DNA from: Oscillospiraceae bacterium
GTDB lineage: Bacteria; Bacillota; Clostridia; Oscillospirales; Ruminococcaceae
Reading direction: 5' to 3'
DNA length: 64,000 bases
NCBI GenBank assembly: GCA_017536405.1
Contig: JAFXHL010000052.1
Span: 1-64,000 of the forward strand
The notes under the pieces are model-generated. The model had not been told where the DNA came from and ran no database searches. It saw nothing but the letters and a program-made list of their open reading frames with translations. How positions within the stretch are numbered: position 1 is the first letter of the stretch; every line of letters starts with the position of its first letter. Of this stretch, positions 6,115 through 8,383 are shown piece by piece. A program made the position numbers and the translations under genes.

Positions 6115-7515
6115 TTAAAATCTGAAATATAAAAATGGATTGAATGAACCGTCAACCAGATATGCTGTTGATAAAACTGTAACAACAACAAGGAATATTG
6201 GTTCAGCAATGCTTATTATAAGATTTCCGACATTTTTATTTTCAATCTTTGAAATAATTTTTTTAGGAAGCGGTGTTGCCCCTATAACAGCAACAATAAG
6301 AATAACCGCAAAACTTAAAAGATAATAAAGCTGTTCGTGTGAAACAAGGGGAAGACCACCCATAAAGAACATTCCTGAAAGACAGGTGAGTGCATCGCTG
6401 AAATTATCGTTTGCAAAGATAACAAAACTTATCGCAACAAGAATTATAACATAGATATGGTTTAAAACCTTCATCTTTTCGAGTTTTTTGAGGAGCAGAA
6501 GTTTCTCGATAACGAGGAACACACCGAAGAAAAGACCCCATATTATAAAGTTCCATGCAGCACCATGCCAGAAACCTGTCAGTAACCATACTACGAATAT
6601 ATTAAAAAACCATCTGGGTTTCGAGCATCTGTTTCCGCCGAGTGGAATATAAACATAGTCCCTGAACCACGTTCCTAATGACATATGCCATCTTCTCCAG
6701 AATTCAGTGATACTTCCTGAAATATACGGATAGTCAAAGTTCTTGCAGAATTCAAAACCGAATATCTTTCCAAGACCTATTGCCATATCGGAATATCCCG
6801 AAAAGTCAAAATATATCTGAAGACCATAGGCTATTGCAAACATCCAGCAGAAAAGAACAGAACTTTCTGTTCTTCCTGTATATGCGTTGCAGAGTTCACC
6901 CAAAGAATTTGCTATAAGAACTTTTTTAGCAAGACCTATAACAAAAATTCTTATTCCCTGATATGTCTTCTCGAGAGTGTGAGTTCTGTTACTAAGCTGT
7001 TCTGCAATATCTGAATATCTTACAATAGGGCCCGCTATAAGCTGAGGGAAAAGCGAAACATAAAGCGCGAGGTTTATAGGATTTTTCTGCGCTTTTGCGT
7101 CGCCTCTGTAAACATCGATAACATAACTGAGTATCTGAAAAGTGTAGAAACTTATTCCTACAGGCAAAGCGAGTTTTAAAAGTTCCATAGAAAGACCTGT
7201 TATCGCATTGAAATTGCTTATAAAGAAATCCGCATATTTGAAATAAACAAGACATCCTATAAATACCATCGCTGAAATAAACAGAATTAACTTAGAAACT
7301 TTCTTTTCTCTGAATTTTTCAACTAAAAGTCCCGCGATATATCCGCATACTATTTCGATAGATATAAGAACGATATATTTTGGTTCGCCCCATGCATAGA
7401 AAAATAAACTTGCAATAAGCAAAACTGCATTTTTCAGCTTTTTGGGAACTACAAAATAGAGTATTAAAACTATCGGAAGAAAATAAAATAAAAATGTTAT
7501 GCTTGAAAACAGCAT
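6115..7515 (-). CDS. MBOAT family membrane O-acyltransferase (AlgI/DltB-like)
   Basis: This 466-aa polytopic membrane protein passes acyl groups, usually acetyl, across the membrane to surface polysaccharides. It has about ten or more hydrophobic helices, the MBOAT signatures FWRRWHMSLGTWFRDYVY and GFWHGAAWN, and the conserved active-site histidine in the latter. It forms a two-gene unit with the downstream DHHW protein. The initiation codon follows AAAGGAATGA. Upstream lies an unusual structured element (7536-7652) rather than a plain promoter. Confidence 0.92.
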   Translation of the reverse strand: MLFSSITFLFYFLPIVLILYFVVPKKLKNAVLLIASLFFYAWGEPKYIVLISIEIVCGYIAGLLVEKFREKKVSKLILFISAMVFIGCLVYFKYADFFISNFNAITGLSMELLKLALPVGISFYTFQILSYVIDVYRGDAKAQKNPINLALYVSLFPQLIAGPIVRYSDIAEQLSNRTHTLEKTYQGIRIFVIGLAKKVLIANSLGELCNAYTGRTESSVLFCWMFAIAYGLQIYFDFSGYSDMAIGLGKIFGFEFCKNFDYPYISGSITEFWRRWHMSLGTWFRDYVYIPLGGNRCSKPRWFFNIFVVWLLTGFWHGAAWNFIIWGLFFGVFLVIEKLLLLKKLEKMKVLNHIYVIILVAISFVIFANDNFSDALTCLSGMFFMGGLPLVSHEQLYYLLSFAVILIVAVIGATPLPKKIISKIENKNVGNLIISIAEPIFLVVVTVLSTAYLVDGSFNPFLYFRF

Positions 7516-7535
7516 TATAAATCATTCCTTTAAAA

Positions 7536-7652
7536 AATAAGGCTGATTTTGACGCGACAACCACATAGAAGTAAAGGTACCGAGCGGCAAACTGCGGTAC
7601 CTTTATTTTATACAAGAATCGCCAAAGGCGGCTCGCCTTGGTCAGCCTTTAT
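7536..7652 (-). ncRNA. Structured intergenic element, candidate leader or small RNA
   Basis: Read on the minus strand, about 115 nt fold into a closed multi-branch shape. An outer stem pairs AAGGCTGA (7642-7649) with TCAGCCTT (7539-7546) and is followed by ATTTTTT. Inside are a GC-rich hairpin with arms CCAAGGCG (7634-7641) and CGCCTTTGG, one base bulged, and an 11-bp perfect hairpin TAAAGGTACCG/CGGTACCTTTA (7572-7605). It lies between the lipoprotein stop and the MBOAT start. It matches no riboswitch class I know. It could be an attenuator, a free small RNA with its own terminator, or a MITE-like palindromic insertion. Confidence 0.5.
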
Positions 7653-7661
7653 TTATTTTGA

Positions 7662-8294
7662 TTAGCCTTCAATAGAAGTAGGGCACATTACAAAGAATAC
7701 CTTTGTTCCATAGTTGCCCATTACTGTTTCATCAGCTTCAACGCAGACATTCCATCTGGGGTCCGCAGTATCTTTAAGAGTTGTCATAAATGCAGCAACA
7801 TCATCTTCGCTTTCGAGTTCGAAAACATATCCGACAAAAGGAATAGAGCCTATCATAGGAGCGAACATAGCGCCCGACTTGAATCCGCCGATTTCTGTTG
7901 TGAATCCGGGGAGATATCCTGCTTCAACAGGCATAACAGCGGGACCAAACTGGATGACAGGGTTTGCTATAATCTGATTGGCAAGCTCTTCAACGCTCAT
8001 ATCGGGGTTTGCCTTGACTTTGTCTAAAAAGTCCTTGTAAAGTGTGTTTCCAAGTGTGTCTGCTGTTGCAGAGGGAGCAGTAGTATCTTCAGGGGCGTCT
8101 GTTGATTCTTCTGTAACGATGTCGGAATTTTCTGTTGCAACAGTTGTTTCTTCGGGAACAGTTGTTGTTTCCTCAGGAACAGTAGTAACTTCGGGTGTGG
8201 TTGTTGTGTCCGGTGTTTCAGCAGGTTTCTTCGAACAAGCTGTGATGCTCATAGCCATAGCGGCAACAAGCATAAGTGTCAATACCTTTTTCAT
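7662..8294 (-). CDS. Secreted lipoprotein with Thr/Pro/Glu-rich linker, function unknown
   Basis: This 210-aa protein has a lipoprotein signal peptide ending in the lipobox SITAC, followed by a low-complexity linker of about 50 residues rich in T, P and E, then a globular domain of about 140 residues. I do not recognise the domain. The start at 8294 is chosen because an AAGGAG site lies 6 nt before that ATG; a farther upstream in-frame ATG lacks one. It is upstream of the MBOAT-DHHW pair on the same strand, but the structured element separates them. Confidence 0.75.
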   Translation of the reverse strand: MKKVLTLMLVAAMAMSITACSKKPAETPDTTTTPEVTTVPEETTTVPEETTVATENSDIVTEESTDAPEDTTAPSATADTLGNTLYKDFLDKVKANPDMSVEELANQIIANPVIQFGPAVMPVEAGYLPGFTTEIGGFKSGAMFAPMIGSIPFVGYVFELESEDDVAAFMTTLKDTADPRWNVCVEADETVMGNYGTKVFFVMCPTSIEG

Positions 8295-8383
8295 TTTATT
8301 CTCCTTGATTATCAATGTGTTTTTTGTATATCATACCATAATAATATTATAATATCACATCATAGCATAAATATACTTTACTC

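Follow-up and report, generated by a model that had tools for sequence, protein, structure and literature searches.

Group IIC introns use intrinsic-terminator hairpins as targets and are ribozyme retroelements that insert beside the stem. Among serine recombinases, a clade of multi-targeting large enzymes (DUF4368/TndX-like) that is rich in DUF4368 has been described, one member of which has a TT core (PMC10083194, in the passages drawn on here). In addition, the integrative mobilizable elements IME_Rho_tet have been reported to target MAFF2 ORFs (PMC12904643, likewise in the parts considered); 'IME_Rho' does not stand for rho-independent terminators there. Bacterial MITEs are represented by elements such as MITEAba12 (PMC6382973). 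Among open-licence PMC papers, with subscription journals lying outside this scope, no report was found of terminator loops that harbour MITEs or elements of serine recombinases.

The window, which is the whole stretch of 64,000 nt analysed here from an Oscillospiraceae bacterium, contains on its minus strand an 8-bp outer stem in which AAGGCTGA (7649-7642) pairs with TCAGCCTT (7546-7539) and is followed by ATTTTTT (7538-7532), while two hairpins, hp1 (7639-7621) and hp2 (7604-7573), lie within it and the stem of hp2 is an 11-bp perfect one (TAAAGGTACCG/CGGTACCTTTA). The folding energy of 151 nt was -42.7 kcal/mol versus a shuffled mean of -33.15 (z -2.77), and 2 of 200 shuffles folded equally well. 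The hairpin region is flanked by a lipoprotein-like ORF and an MBOAT ORF, with a DHHW ORF beyond. An earlier note made from the letters alone had described the outer stem, a GC-rich hairpin, the 11-bp hairpin and the T-run, and had placed them between a lipoprotein gene and an MBOAT-DHHW pair; the fold, the ORFs and the Pfam MBOAT match all agree with it. Its remark that the region fits no RNA class also held, as Rfam 15 gave no match near the gathering score, and no group II intron match was found at the region in the same search. The insert described below holds no ORF of at least 80 aa in the window ORF list, and the serine recombinase gene that is present in related elements is absent from it. 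The features of the locus are the following.

7642-7649, minus strand: host terminator left (5') arm AAGGCTGA; identical arm in the empty orthologues of G005 and G004
7539-7546, minus strand: host terminator right (3') arm TCAGCCTT; identical arm in G005 and G004
7532-7538, minus strand: host terminator T-run ATTTTTT; same in G005
7549-7641 (ends +/- a few bases), minus strand: type-A mobile repeat, an insert of ~90 bp; missing from G005 and G004, with homologous copies elsewhere
7621-7639, minus strand: hp1, AAGGC-GAGCC-GCCTT plus TGGC, the left-end hairpin common to types B and D; from compensatory changes in 11 copies and a pattern search
7573-7604, minus strand: hp2, AAAGGTACC..GGTACCTTT, a terminator-like inner hairpin; from sequence and fold
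7554-7572, minus strand: right-end motif ACTTCTATGTGGTTGTCGC, akin to serine-recombinase element ends; from the copy alignment and those ends
7662-8315, minus strand: lipoprotein-like ORF, the upstream host gene with the invaded terminator; from the ORF and its orthologues
6115-7515, minus strand: MBOAT gene, a downstream bystander; from Pfam MBOAT and orthologues

The orthologous junction of G005, whose lipoprotein and MBOAT orthologues are 88% and 96% identical to those of the window, is ~79 bp shorter, and its sequence AAGGCTGAC-CGAAAACT-GTCAGCCTT-ATTTTTT is that of a textbook terminator with a GC-rich stem, a short loop and a T-run, whereas the loop in the window is enlarged by the insert. 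In G004, whose lipoprotein orthologue is only 62% identical, the junction reads AAGGCTGGC-TGTTTTT-GTCAGCCTT-ATTTTT, and in both genomes the lipoprotein terminator has a loop of 7-8 nt and no element. The insert is present in G003 at 99% identity, and G001 has an unrelated simple terminator at the orthologous place. As G005 and G004 both carry this terminator but not the element, the outer stem with its T-run is the ancestral state and the inner hairpins were inserted; judged by this comparison of orthologues, the structure is the lipoprotein gene's own intrinsic terminator with a ~90-bp element in its loop. The type-A repeat probably entered the apical loop behind the lipoprotein gene in an ancestor of G003 and G000, the window's own genome. 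The single multi-hairpin element of the earlier note was therefore right in structure but not in unity, as it joins a host stem and T-run to an insert. A leader for MBOAT or surface O-acylation, which it had proposed, is contradicted because copies of the element follow unrelated genes and these relatives keep the terminator without it; for the window genes this is an ordinary repeat insertion beside, not for, the MBOAT gene. A small RNA with its own terminator had also been suggested, and the T-run does lie in a terminator, but one that belongs to the upstream lipoprotein gene and is older than the insertion; a free small RNA is not supported, and nothing here requires it.

Type A runs from hp1 through hp2 to the right end ACTTCTAT..GGT, and its copies are dispersed at unrelated sites among these gut bacteria, with a paralogue at G000:C77 and others in G003, G005 and elsewhere. 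The copy alignment gave the consensus hp1 AAGGGGAGCCCCTTTGGGC, then AATCCGTAATAAACAAATC, hp2 AAGGGTACCGAGTTTGTGGCTCGGTACCCTT and then AATTACTTCTATACGGTCATTACCTTAA. A covariance model of 11 copies matched 26 of 297 family genomes at E<=0.01, most strongly in the own genus and genus g116; the weaker matches include plain terminators resembling hp2, and the copy counts are incomplete, the best candidates (at most 13) being scored per genome. Matches to hp2 only in G001, G002 and G004 (e.g. L005, L009) were considered as copies and dropped, and the BLAST and model counts exceed the true copies because one such match, G001:C148, is a plain terminator. As to terminal inverted repeats, the two halves resemble each other only imperfectly when one is inverted, and the ends are AAGGGG..CCTTAA. 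Most copies have AA on both sides and the copy at C55 gains two A compared with its empty site, as expected for a 2-bp core, and the two end A's may be either a 2-bp target duplication or AA owned by the element. Wherever an empty orthologue is known (six sites), hp1 lies towards the upstream gene, but no orientation rule is claimed because a type-B copy at G004:C7 reads the opposite way towards its flanking gene. Being non-coding and dispersed, and having orthologous empty sites, type A is by these sequence traits MITE-like, which was the remaining proposal of the earlier note; dispersed copies with target-site duplications had been named there as the mark of a mobile repeat, and the dispersal in unrelated contexts was found while the duplication stays ambiguous.

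Ten type-A sites were compared, six of which have an orthologous site lacking the element, in each case a simple terminator whose loop took up the insertion, and four were uninformative: relatives found for C2 and C14a have unrelated terminators, C29b is without an orthologue, and C195 is filled in all three genomes where it was seen. Besides the window, the informative sites have these empty counterparts.

C15/C77, empty in G005: ATGGTACTC-CGAGAA-GAGTACCAT
C39a, empty in G000: GACAGCAAG-CATTTTT-CTTGCTGTC
C39b, empty in G000: GACGGAC-AAATAAT-GTCCGTC
C55, empty in G005: GGTATCAGGT-AAAA-ACCTGATACC
C204, empty in G000: AAAGGGTACTGAG-TTATTG-CTCGGTACCCTT

The host stems vary from site to site. When the flanks of 27 chosen copies (15 of type A and 12 of type B) were paired, 16 had an own-flank stem with a score of at least 11, compared with 17 of 300 mispaired controls, and six had no stem by this test; this set omits truncated, composite or orthologous copies such as G005:C208, G003:C14b, G000:C77, G003:C39:208618, G000:C49, L004, L125, L128 and L132. 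Comparison of filled and empty sites shows that type A inserts into terminator loops and that the insert stays enclosed by the arms and T-run that were there before it. Termination is probably retained after insertion, since the host stem can still form, the T-run is kept and hp2 is itself terminator-like. In G005:C46 (L078), an extra reversed gene pair, presumably sigma-factor-like, separates the empty C15/C77 terminator from a leader that resembles a cobalamin riboswitch.

A search for the hp1 pattern in eight genomes gave 58 matches versus 10 for the reversed control. In type B, hp1 is followed by TTTCGTAA..TTACGAAA and the right end CGATAAAACTTCTTTATCGGTAGTACCCTAA; this type likewise sits in terminators, and hp1 and the ends are common to types A and B while the inner hairpins differ. 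Type B was also found inserted reversed at hp1 of one type-A copy (G000:C77 versus G003:C15). In type D, hp1 terminates an element with a large serine recombinase gene, and this arrangement occurs at four places. The type-D copy G004:C115 has a clean empty orthologous terminator at G001:C148, the site at G004:C4 has a relative (G001:C2) that retains half of hp1 in the terminator loop, and for the site at G001:C14 the contig of the relative stops at the arm. Two terminator loops, L278 (G001:C2) and L197 (G001:C40), contain hp1 or half of it only, where relatives have a full type-D or type-B element, and they are possibly excision scars. Moreover, G002 carries tandem arrays (L186, G002:C10:116257-116372; L200, G002:C10:187276-187487; L187, G002:C11:374755-374865) of ~96-nt units, each led by hp1 with a variable inner hairpin and CTCGGTAAC. 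As well, a third hp1-led sub-type (L174, L190 and L159, that is G000:C21, G003:C39:309444 and G005:C43) has the terminator left arm ACGCTCTG duplicated beside a tRNA-like sequence.

The type-D recombinase, a protein of 538 aa with Resolvase, Recombinase, Zn_ribbon_recom and DUF4368 domains, is intact at G000:C74 in the window's own genome. Its 41 relatives come mostly from MAGs named Ruminococcus, Ruminiclostridium or Oscillospiraceae, and a conserved right-end motif directly follows the recombinase gene in 36 of them, as counted by a pattern composed post hoc with the sequences already seen. A T-run lies within 32 nt of the right end in 22 of 35 judgeable relatives versus 6.4% in the control, the other 13 right ends being without one and L238 being left out because its contig ends there. 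The sub-type 1 recombinase element has the end AATACTTCTGTATGGGTGGTC, which resembles type A, and sub-type 2 contains CGATAAAACTTCTTTATCG, a 19-nt identity to type B. The opposite end in L261, L268, G001:C20 and G003:C89 is close to the type-A right end (20 of 21 nt in L261), and a terminator-like arm adjoins this region in L261, G001:C20 and G003:C89. As sequence similarity, the sharing of ends between types A and B and the recombinase elements is evident. The hp1 end is common to type A and type D and the right end to the other recombinase elements, and no single element was seen with both; among the recombinase elements, hp1 was found at the end of type D and in neither sub-type 1 nor sub-type 2. 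The hp1 pattern revealed no left end upstream of recombinase genes, and a search for the type-D far end in G004 found nothing. In L261, both terminator arms surround ~6.4 kb with a truncated recombinase ORF, beside which the cargo (L261:2062-8500) presumably comprises a two-component system and a CotH-like protein, and L284 (G003:C89), which has recombinase-type ends, carries what we assume to be a membrane protein. Two other members, L232 and L241, resemble integrative mobilizable elements because of their MobA/MobL relaxases.

We consider it probable, with good confidence, that the window insert is a MITE-like ~90-bp repeat in a terminator loop and a non-autonomous relative of a DUF4368-type recombinase element for which terminator loops are targets. 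The insertion itself is shown by orthologous sites, and mobilisation by a DUF4368-type recombinase is likely. Type A might be a deletion derivative or end-mimic of a multi-targeting large serine recombinase element, whose recombinase would recombine a circular form with an AA/TT dinucleotide of the terminator loop; the palindrome of A-arm and T-arm would thereby offer an abundant and harmless landing site. A complete type-D element would then have a far end like ACTTCTATACGGTCATTACC and, on its two sides, the arms of one terminator. The unusual point is the intrinsic-terminator loop as a landing site, apparently common to the whole group of serine-recombinase elements. A wider reading, to which we give an even chance, is that a multi-targeting recombinase clade may use the terminator hairpin (A-rich arm, AA/TT loop, T-rich arm) as a general attachment site and may have spawned types A and B as non-coding passengers of ~90 bp with their own terminator-like hairpin, a safe harbour in which integration would be abundant and harmless to the host because the passengers carry that hairpin. 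Mobile DNA requires common, harmless targets, and a terminator-loop recombinase family, if true, would exemplify this clearly; the recognition, by a serine recombinase, of a short palindrome present at hundreds of sites would also become testable. Besides, caution is called for with multi-hairpin 'RNA motifs' downstream of genes, since terminator insertions can look like them.

The alternative that the insert is retained as a structured RNA, with hp1 and hp2 functional as a small RNA, in 3' end processing or as a second terminator and with mobility explaining the spread only, is unlikely. Compensatory changes, which the earlier note had proposed to look for, were seen in hp1, where 4 of the 6 pairs have both partners altered among 11 copies (11 cells versus 3.8 in shuffles), and the fold z of -2.77 and the terminator-like hp2 point the same way. 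These compensatory changes suggest that pairing is kept, which fits recombination or RNA alike, since hairpins at recombinase ends would be kept as DNA too; covariation can also be mimicked by related copies, the inner hairpins differ between types A and B although hp1 and the ends are kept, and Rfam gave no near-threshold match. Mobilisation by another enzyme, e.g. a Y1 transposase (REP/RAYT or IS200/IS605) acting on single-stranded hairpins, would fit the two hairpins near the ends, the lack of a clear target duplication and the palindromic target, and the likeness to serine-recombinase ends would then reflect common target use; in genome searches that covered recombinases and end motifs, that likeness was as specific as full identity over 19 nt in one comparison and 20 matching positions out of 21 in another, and we regard this as quite improbable. 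Spread by recombination or gene conversion among terminators with common GGTACCGAG stems, with no transposition, is hardly credible: hp2 does resemble the common terminator stems of the genus (G001:C148), but the host arms vary per site while the insert and both ends are conserved, and a type-B element has entered a type-A copy at its hp1.

Like group IIC introns, a DUF4368-mobilised type A would have intrinsic-terminator hairpins as targets, whereas those introns are ribozymes placed beside the stem. Type A is short, non-coding, dispersed and structured as are MITEs of the MITEAba12 kind, but differs from what is described of them in its likely serine recombinase partner, its lack of a clear target-site duplication and its landing in terminator loops (PMC6382973, in the parts considered). 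The recombinase elements found here resemble IME_Rho_tet as portrayed in the passages considered, in which inverted terminal repeats bound an element with a relaxase gene and with a serine recombinase at one of its ends, the boundary lying 81-90 bp past the recombinase stop; the targets there are MAFF2 ORFs, not terminator loops, and the window element is gene-free (PMC12904643). In the passages of PMC10083194 drawn on, the recombinases come with no non-coding passengers, unlike here, and the word 'terminator' is absent from the main text as consulted. These recombinases otherwise have, like type D, Resolvase, Recombinase, zinc ribbon and DUF4368 domains together with many targets, and the TT core of the one clade member fits the AA/TT flanks observed here (PMC10083194).
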